Program-made: the position numbers and the translations under genes
Source: an uncultured Actinomycetes bacterium
GTDB lineage: Bacteria; Actinomycetota; Thermoleophilia; RBG-16-64-13
Assembly (NCBI GenBank): GCA_903873715.1
Contig: CAIQPS010000160.1
Location: forward strand, 1-39,661
Reading direction: 5' to 3'
Length of the DNA: 39,661 bases
Part shown: positions 22,436-32,966 of the stretch, piece by piece
Layout: the number at the start of each line of letters is the position of its first letter
Numbering within the stretch: the first letter of the stretch is position 1
Notes under the pieces: model-generated
What the model was told of the DNA's origin: nothing
The model's database searches: none
The model's input: the letters and a program-made list of their open reading frames with translations, nothing else

Positions 22436-23083
22436 TCAGTCGTCGGCCGTCTCGGCCTCGAAGGCCTCCCGGCCTTCCACCACCAGGAACGGGATCAGCG
22501 CCAGGGCCGCGGCGCTGTCCAGCCACCACCATCCGAACGCGGCTGACAACGCCAGCCCGACGAGCAGCACCGCAGAAAGGTAGGCGCAGCTGAGGGCTTC
22601 ATCCGAATCGGCGCGCAGCGCGGGTGAATCCAGACGGTCGGACGCCGCCAGCCGTCGCTTGGTGTGGGCGAGGATAGGCATGCCGATGACCGCGACGACG
22701 GCGATCGCCAACCCCCACACGCTCGTGTCCGCGTCCGCCCGGTGTCCGGCCACCAGCCCGTAGACGGAATACGCCAGGATGTACGCCGCCAGCGCGAACA
22801 GCAGGCCACCGGCCACGCGGGCCGTAAGGCGTTCGACCCGCTCGATGTTCTCCGGGCCGGCGTCGCCGCGCAGTTCCCAGCGGAACCGCAGGAGCAACAC
22901 GACGGCACTCGCCAGTTCGATGAGGCTGTCGATACCGAACGCCAGCAACAGCAGGCTGCCCGACAGCAGACCCAGGGCGACGGACGCGGCGAACTCGACG
23001 GTCATCCAGACCAGCGTCAGGTATTCCAGGCGCACCGCCTCCCGCAGCAGCCGCTTTCTTTCGCCGGACATCGCGGGTCTCAT
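22436..23083 (-). CDS. Small cation-diffusion-facilitator-like transporter
   Basis: The 215-residue protein has six predicted membrane helices arranged like the CDF membrane domain and no C-terminal cytoplasmic metal-binding domain. In helix 2 the usual DxxxD is Asp52-x3-Glu56 (FGIDSLIE). In helix 5 the usual HxxxD is replaced by Glu162-x3-Cys166 (DEALSCAYLS), so metal choice may differ from Zn. WWLDSAAALALIPFLVVEG matches CDF helix 6. It is known that shortened CDF-like proteins occur; transport by this one is inferred. The ATG overlaps the stop of the serpin gene by four bases, so the two are translated together. MSGERKRLL four codons downstream is an alternative start. Confidence 0.75.
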   Translation of the reverse strand: MRPAMSGERKRLLREAVRLEYLTLVWMTVEFAASVALGLLSGSLLLLAFGIDSLIELASAVVLLLRFRWELRGDAGPENIERVERLTARVAGGLLFALAAYILAYSVYGLVAGHRADADTSVWGLAIAVVAVIGMPILAHTKRRLAASDRLDSPALRADSDEALSCAYLSAVLLVGLALSAAFGWWWLDSAAALALIPFLVVEGREAFEAETADD

Positions 23084-24363
23084 GACCCGTGGCGGCTTGG
23101 ATCGGTCACCTGTCCCAGGAACAGGATGGCGCCGGTCTGCCGGTCCCGTATCAGGAAGTAGAAGGGCCGGTCGACGGCCAGGAGCACCTCGTCCTGCGAT
23201 ACTCCGGCGGTGAACGTCACCGTCGCGCCTGCCGCGGCCTCCGTGCCCGCCTCGTCGACCAGGACGAAAGCCTCTTCGCCCACGCCTGAGATCTCAGTCT
23301 GCTCGCTGGTCATCCCGGAGAAGTCCGCCGTCTTCGCCGAGAAGGCGGCCACCAGACCCAGGCCCCGGAGCGGGGCCTTCAAGTCGACGGAGGACGAGAA
23401 GGTGAACCGGGGAAGCTGGAGGGTGACGTGCCGGGTAGCCAGCGCGGCGGTGATCTCGTCGACCCTCTCAGATGTAAGGGCCTCGCCCACCTCTCCGAAC
23501 CCTCCCGCAGCCGGGAGGACCACCATGAAGGACAGCCGCCCATCATCGTACGGCACGTCGATAGCCTGCAGACCGTCGCCCTCCATGTAGTCGTACTCGT
23601 CGCGGAGACCGCACATGGTCGGCACCCTTATCTCCGTCCCGTCCGGCAGGCGGAAAGGCAGGTCCCTGGTGAGACTGGGCTGGAAGGGCTCCTCCCACTT
23701 CGCCTTCATGTAGGCGGCGGTGGTCAGCATGAGCACGGTCTTGTCGGCGCGGGGCCCGTCAGGATCGACCGCCTGAGGGATGCGGCCGTTGGTCGCGTCG
23801 TACATCCACTGGTTGATGGTCTGCGCCGCGGCGGCGTAGTCGTCGAAGTCGACCAAGCGGAGCGGGGCGCCGTAGGTCCTGCCGAGCAGGTCCACGAACG
23901 CCTTCTGGTAGGGCATGCCGGCCTGCCCCCAGAGAGCGGAGGCGGGAACGAAGTCCGCGATCTCCGAAAGGGACACGTCGAGAGCGCCCAAAGCCGGGTA
24001 GAGGCTGGCGTCCGCGAGGTCCGCGTGAAGGACGGTGCGGAATTCCTGCTCCGTTTGCCCCCTCGCCCCGGCCATGGCCAAGGACAGCACCGTCGACACG
24101 GCGTACGGGGAGCACACGAAGTTGCCGTCGGCGGGCCGGATGACCCCGAACAGGTCCAGGGCGAAGGCGTTGCCGCCCGATGCCACCGCGGCGATATCCT
24201 CCATGGCGTGCGAGGAGGGCTTGGTCTGCGCCGGGCCCTCGAGGACGGGCGCCTTGCTGCCCCCACTCCCGCATCCCGCGACGAGCAGCCCGAGGGCGGC
24301 GAGAAACATCAGCCCCGCCACGACGGCGAGCGCACCCTGAAGCGGAAAGCCGGACCGGTTCAT
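23080..24363 (-). CDS. Serpin-family protease inhibitor, lipoprotein
   Basis: Serpins trap serine or cysteine proteases through a mobile reactive loop. The 427-residue protein has a lipoprotein signal with VAGC near residue 31, followed by the full serpin fold: NFVCSPYAVSTVLSLAMAGARG near 82, FVDLLGRTYGAPL, TAAYMKAKWEEPF near 218 and the C-terminal DRPFYFLIRDRQTGAILFLGQV. The hinge (EAGTEAAAGA near 368) keeps the small residues of inhibitory serpins. Counting 17 residues from the hinge Glu puts P1 at or near Gly in TFTAGVS, suggesting an elastase- or subtilisin-like target; this is approximate. The protein would be membrane-anchored outside the cell. GGAGGGGTGAG precedes the ATG. It begins a three-gene minus-strand group. 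Confidence 0.9.
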   Translation of the reverse strand: MNRSGFPLQGALAVVAGLMFLAALGLLVAGCGSGGSKAPVLEGPAQTKPSSHAMEDIAAVASGGNAFALDLFGVIRPADGNFVCSPYAVSTVLSLAMAGARGQTEQEFRTVLHADLADASLYPALGALDVSLSEIADFVPASALWGQAGMPYQKAFVDLLGRTYGAPLRLVDFDDYAAAAQTINQWMYDATNGRIPQAVDPDGPRADKTVLMLTTAAYMKAKWEEPFQPSLTRDLPFRLPDGTEIRVPTMCGLRDEYDYMEGDGLQAIDVPYDDGRLSFMVVLPAAGGFGEVGEALTSERVDEITAALATRHVTLQLPRFTFSSSVDLKAPLRGLGLVAAFSAKTADFSGMTSEQTEISGVGEEAFVLVDEAGTEAAAGATVTFTAGVSQDEVLLAVDRPFYFLIRDRQTGAILFLGQVTDPSRHGS

Positions 24364-27742: not shown

Positions 27743-28036
27743 CTACCAGCTGTGGCGGAGGGCGCCGCCCGGACAGGCGGCGGTGCAGGGCAGCTTGCGC
27801 TCGGTGCCGCCCGATCCGTTCTGGGCCTTACAGACGGAGCAGAGCTCGCGCAGACGCTTGCGCGCCCCCTCGGCGACGGTGCAGACGAAGTCGTCGTAGT
27901 CGTCCATCTCCACGGCGAAGACGTTGCCGGGGCAGACCTTGGTGCACCCGTACTCGGTGCAGCCGATGCAGATGTCGGTATCGACCGTGATGTAGTAGAA
28001 GCCGGAGCCGTCCTCGTAGCCATAGTTGGCGATCAT
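27743..28036 (-). CDS. Two-cluster ferredoxin
   Basis: The 97-residue protein has nine cysteines: Cys23, Cys26, Cys31 and Cys35 (CIGC then CTKVCP), Cys52, Cys66 and Cys69 (CSVC), and Cys84 and Cys88 (CTAACPGGAL). This supports two [4Fe-4S] clusters with long spacing between the halves, unlike a compact 60-residue ferredoxin. The start codon at 28036 overlaps the TGA of the upstream ATPase gene by one base. Its place between a BzdQ-like ATPase and a multi-cluster protein suggests it is the direct electron carrier for the ATPase-driven reductase, comparable to the ferredoxins in benzoyl-CoA reductase operons. That role is inferred from context. Confidence 0.8.
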   Translation of the reverse strand: MIANYGYEDGSGFYYITVDTDICIGCTEYGCTKVCPGNVFAVEMDDYDDFVCTVAEGARKRLRELCSVCKAQNGSGGTERKLPCTAACPGGALRHSW

Positions 28037-29013
28037 CAGCCCGCGACCCCCGCGCCTTCGCCTGCCGGTTCGGCGGCGCCACCGGGCGTCCCGCCGTTGC
28101 CGGGCGCAGTCCCGCCGGCGGCCGCCGCTTCCTTCTGGGCCTTGCGGTACAACGAATGGGCGAAGAGCGATGCACCCAAGGCACCGGCGATCTGCGGGTC
28201 GAGCACCGAATCCGCGGGAAGCTTGATCGCCTCCACCCCGATGAGCCGCTCGATCCGCCGTGTCACCCCGATGTTCTTGCCGATGCCGCCGGTGATGAAG
28301 AACTCGCGCTCCACCTGCATCCGTTCGATGAGCCCGGCCACGCGCTGGGCCATGGCGGCGCAGTAGGCGGCGAGCACCTTGTTCACGCTCCAGCCCGCGC
28401 GCAGCAGCGAGGTGGCCTCGGACTTGGCGAAGACCGTGCAGACGTTGCTGACCGCCGCGGGTTCCTCGTCGATCTCGAACGAGCGCCGCCCGATGTCCTC
28501 GATGGGCACCGACAGCACGTCCGCGATGACCTCCATGCCCCGGCCGGTCCCGGCCGCGCACTTGTCGTTCATGATGAAGTTCAGGACCTTGCCCCGCTCG
28601 TCGATGCGGATGACCTTGCAGTCCTGGCCACCCATGTCGAGGATGGTGCGGATGCTGGGGCCTCCCATGTGGTTGGCGCCGCGGGCGTGGCACGCGATCT
28701 CGGTGATGGTCCGGTCCGCGAAGGGCACGTTCACCCGGCCGTAACCGGTGCCGACCGCGTAGGAGATGTCGTCGAGCGTCAGCCCGATGGGCTCGGCCGC
28801 ACCGCGGAACGCGCGCAGGGCACTATCCGGGCTGGACGAACCGGTGCGGGTTGAATTGAAGGCGAGGAGCTTGCCGTCGGCCAGGATGACCGCCTGCGAA
28901 CTGACGGACCCGACGTCGACGCCTACCGTGATGCTGGAGGCCGCCCGCCAATCAAGGTCAGGGGCCTGGTAGGTCTTCTCGCTCCACCGCCAAAAGTGCT
29001 GGGTCTCTGTCAT
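28036..29013 (-). CDS. bzdQ: BadF/BcrA/HgdC-type ATPase, BzdQ-like
   Basis: These ASKHA-fold ATPases hydrolyse ATP to push a low-potential electron onto a dehydratase or reductase. The 325-residue protein has the phosphate motif GVDVGSVSSQAV at residues 31-42 and the ADP-binding TILDMGGQDCKVI near 123. Cys152 (NDKCAAGTG) and Cys192 (SNVCTVFAKSE) are the ligands of the subunit-bridging [4Fe-4S] cluster. RTGSSSPDSA and GTGYGRVNVPFADRTITEIACHARGAN read like the Q/A subunit of class I benzoyl-CoA reductase. About 35 extra N-terminal residues and a Gly/Ala/Pro-rich tail are additions. A second, different ATPase lies upstream, as in bzd/bcr operons. Exact substrate remains open because the catalytic subunits are not in the window. 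Confidence 0.82.
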   Translation of the reverse strand: MTETQHFWRWSEKTYQAPDLDWRAASSITVGVDVGSVSSQAVILADGKLLAFNSTRTGSSSPDSALRAFRGAAEPIGLTLDDISYAVGTGYGRVNVPFADRTITEIACHARGANHMGGPSIRTILDMGGQDCKVIRIDERGKVLNFIMNDKCAAGTGRGMEVIADVLSVPIEDIGRRSFEIDEEPAAVSNVCTVFAKSEATSLLRAGWSVNKVLAAYCAAMAQRVAGLIERMQVEREFFITGGIGKNIGVTRRIERLIGVEAIKLPADSVLDPQIAGALGASLFAHSLYRKAQKEAAAAGGTAPGNGGTPGGAAEPAGEGAGVAG

Positions 29014-29028
29014 CGCCTGGCTAGTGTA
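29014..29028 (-). promoter_or_regulatory. Possible -10 element just before bzdQ-like gene
   Basis: On the minus strand TACACT (29028 to 29023) is followed by nine bases and the ATG at 29013. No Shine-Dalgarno sequence is obvious. The same hexamer and spacing occur before korA. The bzdQ-like gene may thus have its own nearly leaderless transcript. Confidence 0.35.
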
Positions 29029-29040
29029 CTACTCCGTCCG

Positions 29041-29062
29041 GCCCTGGACTAAAGTCCGGGGC
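29041..29062. promoter_or_regulatory. 22-bp inverted repeat, candidate operator upstream of bzdQ-like gene
   Basis: GCCCTGGACT (29041-29050) and AGTCCGGGGC (29053-29062) are inverted around AA, with one mismatch in ten pairs. The centre lies about 38 bases upstream of the bzdQ-like ATG, where a -35 region would sit. It could be a regulator site or a short hairpin. It also touches the left edge of the mazF remnant. Confidence 0.5.
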
Positions 29063-29280
29063 TATGTAGTCCTCTGACGAGCGCGGTCCACAGCCGTTGG
29101 CCGCTCGACGTCGTGCTCGCAGATCTGGAGACTGCGGGCCTACCGGTCTTTTCTCTGGTGCGGATGAAGCTGTTCACGCTCGATGATCGCGTGGTCGTCA
29201 GACAGCTCGGCCATCTGGGCCCAGAAGACCGCGCAACGGCCTCGGCAGCTCTCTGCGTGTTGCTGGGTGGAGTGAACTAG
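29053..29280 (+). pseudogene. Remnant of a MazF/PemK-type toxin gene
   Basis: The plus-strand frame from 29053 to the TAG at 29278 encodes a C-terminal MazF-like piece. It includes SRWPLDVVLADLETAGLPVF, SLVRMKLFTLDDRVVVRQLG and a final helix (EDRATASAALCVLL). These match the last two thirds of PemK/MazF endoribonucleases, where LDVVL-DW--AGLP and VRMKLFTLD are characteristic. The first 40-50 residues are missing: an in-frame TAA at 29050-29052 sits inside the inverted repeat, and there is no plausible start. No antitoxin gene is adjacent. It is antisense to the surrounding operon, and its TAG overlaps the TAG of the bzdP-like gene (CTAG). It is probably non-functional debris. Confidence 0.65.
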
Positions 29281-30053
29281 GAAGCGCTCTCCCAGGCTAT
29301 CAGCGCCGCGCCGAGCGCGCCCAGGTACTCGGCATCCGGCAACACCTCCACGTTCACACCGCCGAGCGCCTCGGACAGGGACTTCACGAAGCCCACGTTC
29401 AGCGCCGCGCCGCCACCCAGCACCACCGGGTCGTCGACCCCGATGCGCCGCACCATCGCGGACACGCGGCTGGCCATGGCATCGTGGACCGCACGGGCGA
29501 TGTCGGCAGCGGGGGTGTTGGCGTGGATGAGGCTGACCACCTCTGACTCCGCGAACACCGTGCACTGAGCGTTCATCGGGATGGACTGGGTCGACCCGAG
29601 CGACGAGGTGGCGAAGTCACCGAGGCTCATGTCGAGAGCGCGGCTCATGGCTTCCACGAAGGCGCCGGCACCTGCCGCGCACTTCTCGTTGATGGCGAAG
29701 TCGAGGACCTTGCCTTCGGGGCTCAGCCTGATGGCCCGGGCTTCGTCGGCGCCGACGTCGATGACGGTGCGGGCCCCGGGGCGCAGCTTCGCGGCGCCCC
29801 GCCCATCGGCGAGGACCTCGGTAGGCTGCTGCCCGGCGATGGCAAGGGCTTTGCGCCCTGCGCCGGTGGCGGCGATCGCCTGGATCGCCGACCGGTCTAT
29901 GCCGGCCACCCGTGCGGCCTCCTGCAGGCCCCGCTCGGCGGATTCCTCCTGGTCGAACCCCGACACCACGGCGGCCTTGGCCAGGACGACCCCGTCCTGG
30001 ATGAGCACGGCGTGCACGTTCTTGGCTCCGACATCGATGCCGGCAACGATCAT
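29277..30053 (-). CDS. bzdP: BadF/BcrA/HgdC-type ATPase, BzdP/BcrD-like
   Basis: This 258-residue protein is a second ASKHA-type activator ATPase, clearly distinct from the BzdQ-like one. It begins MIVAGIDVGAKNVHAVLIQDG and has VIDVGADEARAI near residue 97. The cluster-ligand cysteines are Cys125 (NEKCAAGAG) and Cys164 (NAQCTVFAESE), with the usual spacing of about 40. The AKNVHAVLI variant of the phosphate loop is typical of the D/P subunits of class I benzoyl-CoA reductases, which pair with A/Q subunits as a heterodimer. The internal ATG at 30053 is chosen: GGAGGG precedes it and it removes a non-homologous leader. It follows korC by 47 bases. Confidence 0.78.
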   Translation of the reverse strand: MIVAGIDVGAKNVHAVLIQDGVVLAKAAVVSGFDQEESAERGLQEAARVAGIDRSAIQAIAATGAGRKALAIAGQQPTEVLADGRGAAKLRPGARTVIDVGADEARAIRLSPEGKVLDFAINEKCAAGAGAFVEAMSRALDMSLGDFATSSLGSTQSIPMNAQCTVFAESEVVSLIHANTPAADIARAVHDAMASRVSAMVRRIGVDDPVVLGGGAALNVGFVKSLSEALGGVNVEVLPDAEYLGALGAALIAWESAS

Positions 30054-30100
30054 TCTCGGTCCCTCCGCGATCTGAGCGCCACGCCGTCCGGCGGCGCCTC

Positions 30101-30751
30101 TCAACGGTCTCGCAACGCCAGTCCGCGGGCGAGAGCCTTGCTGTTGATCTCCTCCGTGCCTGCGGGCACCATCACGAGGACCGCCTTGCGTAGCGACTCC
30201 GCAGTCACCACGCCGGTGATACCCGCGACGGCCCCCAGGGTGAGGATGTTCGCCGTCTGCTTCCGCCCGGTCTCTTCGAACGCCAGGCGGGTGAACGGGA
30301 TGCCGAACTGCTCCCCCTTGAACGGCGGCACGGCCGTCACGTTCTCGGAGTCGTAGACCAGCACACCGTCGGAGCGTAGCACGCGGATGTATTCGTCGGC
30401 AGACGCTTGGTTGAGCGCGACGAGCAGATCGGCATGTTCGAGCTCGGGATAGTCGATCTGCGCGTCGGAGATGATGACGTCGCTGCGGCTGTAGCCGCCC
30501 CGGGCCTCGGGGCCATAGGACTGGGTCTGGACGACGAACCGGTGGTCGCGGGCCCCGGCCATCGCCAGGATGACCCCCATGAGGATGACCCCCTGCCCGC
30601 CGCTGCCCCCGAACCTCACCTGCACCAGGTCGCGACCGGCGAGCAATCCGGTGCGGTCCACCGCCGAGGCGCGCGCTCGCTCGGCGCGCGCCGCCTGTGC
30701 GGCCTTGCCCCCGCCGGCCCCGGCGCCCGGCGCGCCCGCGGTGGCGCTCAT
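30101..30751 (-). CDS. korC: 2-oxoacid:ferredoxin oxidoreductase, gamma subunit
   Basis: The 216-residue protein has the gamma-subunit fold of 2-oxoacid:ferredoxin oxidoreductases. RFGGSGGQGVILMGVILAMAG lies near residue 46, QTQSYGPEARGGYSRSDVIIS near 74, and LVALNQASADEYI near 108. It helps bind CoA and completes the heterotrimer with the alpha and beta subunits. The first 40 residues are Ala/Gly-rich and extra to the family. The start ATG at 30751 overlaps the korB stop as ATGA. A delta (ferredoxin-type) subunit is missing from the cluster; the 97-residue ferredoxin downstream may replace it. Confidence 0.88.
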   Translation of the reverse strand: MSATAGAPGAGAGGGKAAQAARAERARASAVDRTGLLAGRDLVQVRFGGSGGQGVILMGVILAMAGARDHRFVVQTQSYGPEARGGYSRSDVIISDAQIDYPELEHADLLVALNQASADEYIRVLRSDGVLVYDSENVTAVPPFKGEQFGIPFTRLAFEETGRKQTANILTLGAVAGITGVVTAESLRKAVLVMVPAGTEEINSKALARGLALRDR

Positions 30752-31704
30752 TCCCCGCCCTCCAGAGGCAGCCCGGAGGCGTCGGCGGCCTCGCCGTTGC
30801 GGGCGGGCGGACGTTCGGGCGCGGTCTTGCGGGGCTTCCTCGGGGCAGCGGGCTGTTTCGGCCGGGCCGGCGCCTCGGCGGCCCCGGCCTGCGCCCGCTC
30901 GACTATCGCGGCATAGGCGGACTGGAACTCGGGTGCCTCGTCGTCCTCGTACAGGATCCCGGTCACGATCTTGTCCCGCAGTTCGTCGGGCGTCATCTTG
31001 GCCGCCGCCGTCACGGATATCGACCTGGCTTTGGTGTCGTCCAGCATGGCTATCACGCCGGCGGGCGGGTTCCGCTTGCCGTATTCCGTCGGGCAGGGGA
31101 CCACCGCTTCGATGAAGGAGAACCCCTTGTGCTGGATGCCCTGCTTGATGAGCCGTTCGAGCGGCCGGATGTTGGCCGCGATGCCCCGGGCCACGAAGCT
31201 CGCCCCCGCCGCTTCCGCCAGCCGGCAGAGGTCGAAGGACGGTTCGATGGACCCGTACGGGGCGGTCGTCCCCCGGTCGCCGGGGTCCATGGTGGGCGAC
31301 ACCTGGCCGCCGGTCATGCCGTAGGTCTGGTTGTTGAACAGGATGCAGGTGATGTCGATGTTGCGCCGGCAGGCGTGGATGAAGTGGTTCCCCCCGATGG
31401 CCGCGCCGTCGCCGTCGCCGGTGAGCACGACCACGGTGAAGTCGGGCCGGGCCATCTTGATGCCGGTCGCGAAGGCGAGCGCCCTCCCGTGGATAGAGTG
31501 CACCGTCCCCAGGTCGATATAGCCGACAGCCCGGCTCGAGCAGCCGATCCCGCCGACCACCACGGTCTTTTCGCGCACCAGCCCCAGGTCGAGCACGGCC
31601 CTGAGGAAGGCACCGGTCACGATGCCGTTGCCGCACCCCGGGCACCAGATGTGGGGTAACCGCTCGGTGTGGAGGAACTGCTCGATGTCGAGGACTTCAG
31701 ACAC
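30748..31704 (-). CDS. korB: 2-oxoacid:ferredoxin oxidoreductase, beta subunit
   Basis: The beta subunit binds thiamine diphosphate and the catalytic [4Fe-4S] cluster. The 318-residue protein shows WCPGCGNGIV (Cys21, Cys24), GGIGCSSRA near 52, and the ThDP/Mg motif GDGDGAAIGGNHFIHACRRN near 95. The later cluster cysteine is in VVPCPTEYGKRNPPA near 204. The last 60 residues form a Lys/Pro/Ala-rich extension absent from most relatives. The protein converts 2-oxoglutarate or another 2-oxoacid with CoA to acyl-CoA, CO2 and reduced ferredoxin; substrate choice is inferred from the KorAB-like sequence. It overlaps both neighbours (8 bases with korA, 4 with korC). Confidence 0.92.
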   Translation of the reverse strand: MSEVLDIEQFLHTERLPHIWCPGCGNGIVTGAFLRAVLDLGLVREKTVVVGGIGCSSRAVGYIDLGTVHSIHGRALAFATGIKMARPDFTVVVLTGDGDGAAIGGNHFIHACRRNIDITCILFNNQTYGMTGGQVSPTMDPGDRGTTAPYGSIEPSFDLCRLAEAAGASFVARGIAANIRPLERLIKQGIQHKGFSFIEAVVPCPTEYGKRNPPAGVIAMLDDTKARSISVTAAAKMTPDELRDKIVTGILYEDDEAPEFQSAYAAIVERAQAGAAEAPARPKQPAAPRKPRKTAPERPPARNGEAADASGLPLEGGE

Positions 31705-32875
31705 TCTCGTACTTCCCGACGAGTTCGGTCACCCGGTCGAGGATCTCCCGCGGGGTGATGAGGGTCCCGTCGATCTTGCCCATGCTGATGACCGTGGTCC
31801 AGTTCTCCGCCATCTTGCGGACCTCGCGCGCATACTGCCCCAGGTTCAGCTCGGGGATCAGCATGAACTCCACCCGCCGGGCCACCTTCTGGATGATCTC
31901 CACCGGCAGCGGGAACAACGTGTAGAGGTGGAGCACCTCCACCTGCAGCCCTTCCTTCTCGGCCAGCTTCCAGGCCGCCCGGGCACTCCGCGCGCACGAC
32001 CCGTACGCCACGATGCACACCCGGCCCTTGCCCTCGTTCTTGACGTCGTAGAGGCAGAGCTCGTCGCGGTGGTTGCCGACCTTGTCGTAGAGCTCGCGCA
32101 GGAACTTCTCGCTCTTCTGCGGGTCGTTGGTGGGGAAGCCGGTCTCGTCGTGGATGAGGCCGGTCACGTGAGGATGCGCCTCCGACCCGAGCACGTGCGG
32201 TGGATGCACCTCCCGCACCAACTCAGGATGGATGTAGCTGGGGCTGAAGTCGAAATCGCCGCTGGTGAGCCGGTACCGGTCGATGAGCTCGGGCGCGAAG
32301 CTCTCGCGCATGTGGCCCACCACCTCGTCGGCAAGCAGGGTCACCGGCGTGCGGAACCGCTGCGCGAAGCGCACGGCGGCCATGGTAAGCCGGTACATGT
32401 CCGCCACGTTGGAGGCTGCGAGCACCACGGCCGGGTGGTCGCCGTGGGTGCCCCAGCGGGCCTGCATGACGTCACCCTGCGACGGTGCGGTGGGACGGCC
32501 GGTGGAAGGCCCGGCCCGCATCACGTCCACGATCAGAAGAGGCGCCTCCACCATGATGGCGTAGCCGATGGCCTCCTGCATCAACGAGAACCCGGGGCCC
32601 GAAGTGGCCGTCATGGCCAGCTGGCCCGCCAGCGACCCCCCGATGCACGCGCAGATGGACGCGATCTCGTCCTCCATCTGCAGGAACACGCCGCCCACCT
32701 TCGGCAACTCGACGGCCATGGCCTCCATGATCTCGGAGCTGGGGGTGATGGGGTATCCGGCGAAGAAGCGCACGCCGGCGTCGAGGGCCCCGAGAGCGCA
32801 CGCCCGGTTCCCCTGGATGAGCATGCTGCTGGGGTCGATCTTTTCGCGGAGCACGTGTGTGTGCCAGCGTTCCAT
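31697..32875 (-). CDS. korA: 2-oxoacid:ferredoxin oxidoreductase, alpha subunit
   Basis: The alpha subunit is 392 residues from ATG 32875. It starts with the pyrimidine-binding domain (LIQGNRACALGALDAGVRF near 19, FAGYPITPSSEIMEAM near 38, MEDEIASICACIGGSLAG near 65). DVMRAGPSTGRPTAPSQGD near 115 and the C-terminal VCIVAYGSCARSARAAWKLA near 285 complete the KorA pattern. Together with KorB it makes low-potential reduced ferredoxin. The start is chosen because codons upstream would place the N-terminus inside the promoter-like region. GAGGAG lies only two to three bases before the ATG. It leads the minus-strand operon korA-korB-korC-bzdP-bzdQ-ferredoxin-FeS-phosphoesterase. Confidence 0.92.
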   Translation of the reverse strand: MERWHTHVLREKIDPSSMLIQGNRACALGALDAGVRFFAGYPITPSSEIMEAMAVELPKVGGVFLQMEDEIASICACIGGSLAGQLAMTATSGPGFSLMQEAIGYAIMVEAPLLIVDVMRAGPSTGRPTAPSQGDVMQARWGTHGDHPAVVLAASNVADMYRLTMAAVRFAQRFRTPVTLLADEVVGHMRESFAPELIDRYRLTSGDFDFSPSYIHPELVREVHPPHVLGSEAHPHVTGLIHDETGFPTNDPQKSEKFLRELYDKVGNHRDELCLYDVKNEGKGRVCIVAYGSCARSARAAWKLAEKEGLQVEVLHLYTLFPLPVEIIQKVARRVEFMLIPELNLGQYAREVRKMAENWTTVISMGKIDGTLITPREILDRVTELVGKYESV

Positions 32876-32916
32876 CGCTCCTCGAGTGTAGCACCGCGAC
32901 AGGTAGGGCCTGTCAC
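32876..32916 (-). promoter_or_regulatory. korA promoter candidate with 17-bp dyad
   Basis: On the minus strand an extended -10 (TGCTACACT, 32893 to 32885) lies nine bases before the korA ATG. GTGACA (32916 to 32911) could serve as a -35 with a long 20-base spacer. GACAGG (32898-32903) and its inverse CCTGTC (32909-32914) form a perfect dyad in the spacer, a likely regulator site for the whole redox operon. Confidence 0.4.
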
Positions 32917-32966
32917 ACGAGGCCACCCGCCCGTGGGCTCATGGTGGCACCGCGCAGGCCGCGCGG

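Follow-up and report, generated by a model that had tools for sequence, protein, structure and literature searches.

A truncated mazF-type gene between bzdP and bzdQ as the probable remnant of a toxin–antitoxin insertion in a Thermoleophilia operon

What occupies a gap of 263 bases between two ATPase genes of one operon, and how did it get there? The question was raised by a contig of an uncultured Thermoleophilia bacterium (contig C160, analysed over its whole 39,661 nucleotides and referred to as the window), which belongs to a 3.33 Mb draft genome of 169 contigs. The operon, on the minus strand, is an anaerobic electron-supply operon of the benzoyl-CoA-reductase type, with its genes in the order korABC, bzdP-like, bzdQ, ferredoxin and NuoG-like. 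Specifically, korA (31697–32926), korB (30748–31704) and a gamma-type subunit gene (ending at 30101) precede the gene for a BzdP-like BcrAD_BadFG ATPase or activase (29277–30056) and bzdQ (28036–29013; benzoyl-CoA reductase, bzd-type, subunit Q, likewise a BcrAD_BadFG ATPase), and a small ferredoxin gene and then a NuoG-like iron-sulphur protein gene lie downstream of bzdQ on the same strand. BzdQ exceeded the equivalog cut-off of TIGR03192 (418.3 versus 380.2 bits), and the gene order korABC-bzdP-bzdQ-ferredoxin-NuoG-like is that of the bzd-type benzoyl-CoA reductase cluster (bzdP, bzdQ, bzdM/V-like, korABC). In the window, however, the bzdP/bzdQ junction is widened by a mazF relic to the 263 bases that separate the bzdP-like stop from the bzdQ start. 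Elsewhere in the window (23080–24363) lies a gene for a bacterial serpin (E 1.8e-87 to PF00079), the N-terminus of which resembles that of a lipoprotein.

Within the gap, an open frame runs on the plus strand from 29053 to 29280, antisense to the operon. As the initial annotation had pointed out, no ATG, GTG or TTG stands at its head (the first start-like codon listed within it is a GTG at 29113), and its TAG stop (29278–29280) overlaps the minus-strand stop of the BzdP-like gene (29277–29279) in a shared CTAG. The frame had been taken for part of a PemK/MazF toxin gene, and a match of its residues 5–70 to positions 40–108 (of 109) in PF02452 (PemK_toxin) was indeed real (E 0.0014), but the score of 19.3 bits lay under the gathering score of 23.1 bits. 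Taken by itself, this profile match would be a borderline call, and it is the related genomes that decide the MazF identity. Among these genomes (Thermoleophilia/Actinomycetota metagenome-assembled genomes, none of the same genus as the window), tblastn revealed MazF genes in nine others of the class, with 47–58% identity and E-values of 1e-14 to 1e-20, which rules out chance likeness; over the retained part, the intact homologues of the class share 48–61% identity with the fragment. PF02452 was passed by both intact relatives scanned (45 and 49 bits), the upstream antitoxin of the one intact relative scanned for it passed PF04014 (MazE), and several intact toxins have antitoxin-like frames (SRLTKKYQAT and similar) directly upstream. 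At the DNA level, the spacer gave above-background matches within the family only to the mazF genes of relatives (68–70% over ~107 bases). NCBIfam gave no match for the fragment, and PDB searched by sequence none for either the fragment or an intact relative. No closer copy was found in a phylum-wide sample of 396 genomes and no relative of the fragment among viral contigs, while a plasmid search returned a single distant match (48%, on a Candidatus Megaera plasmid); a literature search on decayed mazF matched nothing within the limits of the wording searched. By homology, then, 29071–29280 is the relic of a MazF/PemK mRNA interferase gene.

Alignment to the intact toxins placed the start of the homology at ~29071–29074, where LTSA of the window (in PLTSA) corresponds to MITSA, and the in-frame stretch before this break (29053–29073, plus strand) is not homologous to the toxin N-terminal part. 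The relic (29071–29280, plus strand) retains ~66 of ~113 codons, or the C-terminal ~58% of a mazF/pemK-type gene, which upholds the toxin identity and brings its extent from the two thirds claimed at first to nearer three fifths. The missing first ~45 codons include the VVVVPFPF strand and the arginine of RRRPAL. In MazF of K. pneumoniae, both RNase activity and toxicity require Arg28 and Thr51 (PMC8086154). Because the PDB gave no match, the catalytic positions were taken from the literature and from a reading of the family alignment rather than of a structure, and on this basis the equivalent of Arg28 (the R of RRRPAL) was lost and that of Thr51 (the T of ITSA) was kept. Compared with the toxins (PF02452) and MazE/AbrB-type antitoxins (PF04014) of G003, G005, G011, G014 and G024, the fragment keeps the TS, WP and VR.K.FTLD motifs; unlike the intact pairs, it stands antisense inside the bzd operon, and the antitoxin, the start codon and the ribosome binding site of a functional type II module are all absent. 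No antitoxin gene lies beside it in the spacer, and no copy of the toxin N-terminus or of an antitoxin (with that of G003 as the reference) was found elsewhere in the genome. A fragment without a start cannot make an active nuclease and therefore has no toxin role today, and the frame should not be annotated as a toxin.

The retained part is well preserved. It holds 18 of the 20 columns that are invariant in eight intact copies and has no internal stops or frameshifts, which suggests that the truncation is not old, or else that the lineage evolves slowly. GC content at third positions was 0.69 in the fragment versus 0.73–0.89 in the intact copies, but as a sign of relaxed constraint this is weak, and an open frame is also expected of sequence that is still constrained.

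A second mazF relic illustrates the same kind of loss. G003 carries an intact antitoxin–toxin pair, and its congener G012 shares the flanks of this pair; in G012 (locus L007 on contig C22, reverse strand), however, ~500 bases reaching from before the antitoxin to the MITSA motif of the toxin are replaced by ~63, as the comparison with G003 revealed. As in the window, the antitoxin and the toxin N-terminus are deleted, the C-terminal part is open and conserved, and the breakpoint is nearly the same, offset by ~20 bases from that of the window. In contrast to the window, the G012 relic is located elsewhere in the genome, at the site of the intact pair of G003, and behind it comes an inserted gene whose product carries a Phd/YefM antitoxin domain. 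The comparison of these two related genomes displays decay of the type that is proposed below for the window.

The bzdP/bzdQ junction itself was compared in eleven other family genomes in which the two ATPase genes occur in each other's vicinity. The distance between the bzdP and bzdQ matches was ~20–130 bases in eight of these eleven, so that close spacing is the common state, in keeping with the earlier statement that the two genes are usually adjacent. The closest relative, G006 (L030), has a ~240-base spacer of unrelated sequence without toxin similarity, and no relative was found with the same spacer as the window yet devoid of toxin similarity. Two genomes carry much larger inserts at this junction. 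That of G015 (~2000–7996 of L031) measures ~6 kb and contains Wzz-type genes along with ABC transporter and nucleotidyltransferase genes; that of G017 (1–7993 of L033) measures ~9.8 kb and contains nucleotidyltransferase and Wzz-type genes too, together with radical SAM and PqqD-like ones. The functions of these genes were read from their sequences and not from a domain scan, and the two cassettes appear to consist of exopolysaccharide-type genes. Insertion at the bzdP/bzdQ junction is therefore not unusual. Moreover, the bzdP product of the window is two to three residues shorter at its end than in some relatives, an earlier end that fits a junction at the very end of bzdP.

The reading that we favor, with a probability of roughly 87%, is that the insertion of a mazEF-like module separated bzdP from bzdQ and that one deletion followed, leaving the spacer with the dead remnant of the module. 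A type II module, consisting of a MazE/AbrB-like antitoxin and a MazF-like mRNA interferase, would have landed there in antisense orientation to the operon, so that its 3′ end and that of bzdP faced each other. Subsequently, a deletion would have removed the antitoxin together with the first ~45 toxin codons, the catalytic arginine included, and would have brought the break near the promoter region of bzdQ. Loss of the antitoxin would be survivable only with a broken toxin, which would explain why only the C-terminal part remains. The homology, the missing parts, the usual close spacing in relatives and the similar deletion in another genome are established by the comparisons above, and from these we infer that insertion preceded deletion and that a single deletion was involved. 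Of the two origins put forward in the initial annotation, insertion (followed by deletion) fits better than a fusion of two operons, because adjacent bzdP and bzdQ genes are common in the family. Against this reading stand the sub-threshold PF02452 score and the finding of neither an empty site nor an intact insertion among the non-congeneric genomes compared.

Toxin–antitoxin modules are generally viewed as mobile and prone to rapid decay, and the feature is an ordinary fossil of one, with a tidy comparative history. It offers a clean, recent case of decay within a metabolic operon, with the same kind of loss in a second genome, and marks the bzdP/bzdQ junction as a repeated site of insertion (a relic here, 6–10 kb cassettes in two relatives). 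Beyond annotation and the history of the operon, its practical value is small.

The toxin gene accounts for most of the gap of over 260 bases that it had been invoked to explain, since ~207 of the 263 bases belong to the relic; the ~57 bases left toward bzdQ may be a promoter/operator stretch for that gene. In this stretch, a perfect palindrome, GGACTAAAGTCC / GGACTTTAGTCC (29046–29057), is a candidate operator centred ~38 bases ahead of the bzdQ start, and TACACT (29023–29028, minus strand), recognized by eye 9 bases before the bzdQ ATG, may serve as a –10 element. Such elements raise the alternative that the spacer DNA was retained because it is useful, as an internal promoter and palindromic operator through which expression of bzdQ and the downstream ferredoxin genes is uncoupled from that of korABC-bzdP, with the mazF sequence as a mere carrier. 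This alternative, which is compatible with an insertion followed by a deletion, is tentative and in our view somewhat unlikely. In its favor, GGACTTTAGTCC occurs in four exact copies in the 3.33 Mb genome versus one for the reversed control pattern, and by eye all four sites (L110–L113) are apparently upstream regions: besides the one before bzdQ, the others (G000 C6:5858, C16:30368 and C80:4534) lie in settings after the gene for a FixJ-like (FixJ/LuxR-type) regulator at C6:5654–5821, before an HpaB_N-domain gene and before a zinc-ribbon gene. When one mismatch was allowed, however, the palindrome count equalled that of the control (9 versus 9). The exact palindrome is absent from this junction in every relative, and the core is nearly absent from the relatives altogether; G006 carries a different palindrome, CCCCTAAAGGGG (L030, 4520–4570), at the same distance before bzdQ.

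The palindrome core resembles the DosR/DevR box of mycobacteria. An operator of this type would be expected to show the palindromic core GGACTWWAGTCC in promoter regions more often than by chance, a measure on which the exact counts and the one-mismatch counts given above disagree, and a literature search on the exact DosR core matched nothing within the limits of the wording searched. None of the 13 LuxR-type (GerE) matches in the genome was tied to the palindrome site. The OsdR consensus of Streptomyces is AGGGCCGATCGGCCCT (PMC5069765), from which the window palindrome differs in its core. A sigma-70 scan near bzdQ found no full promoter, and a terminator scan revealed one weak terminator-like site on the plus strand, inside the relic. 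No stable fold was detected for the bzdQ leader RNA (z-score –0.19), and Rfam gave only sub-threshold chance matches over 28900–29400. Furthermore, the mazF part of the spacer does not include the palindrome. An internal operator before bzdQ is a possible feature, no more than a fair guess. The bolder version, in which the insertion and decay of the toxin–antitoxin module rewired the operon, giving bzdQ and the ferredoxin genes that follow it a palindromic operator of their own as part of a small undescribed regulon of this Thermoleophilia lineage, strikes us as distinctly unlikely.

Still less probable is that a larger cassette once split the operon and collapsed, leaving the end of a mazF gene without any toxin–antitoxin insertion between bzdP and bzdQ. 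The cassettes of G015 (~6 kb) and G017 (~9.8 kb) demonstrate that this very site takes insertions, but no mazF gene was among the cassette genes read (part of the G017 cassette lay outside the locus read), tblastn with the fragment (P0001) gave no match in either genome, and the 263-base gap holds no other cassette trace. A living short gene, encoding a C-terminal MazF peptide that begins at the internal GTG (29113) or at a non-standard codon and acting as a decoy or antitoxin-binding product, would agree with the open frame and the conserved columns; it is nevertheless very improbable given that the frame has no start at its head and lies antisense in the operon, that the GTG product would have 55 residues without the fold core, and that the genome holds no cognate antitoxin. 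Finally, a chimera in which the assembler joined the fragment into the operon is conceivable in a draft of 169 contigs but scarcely credible here, as both flanks are syntenic with relatives in normal order and orientation, and a chance join would therefore need to restore the operon.
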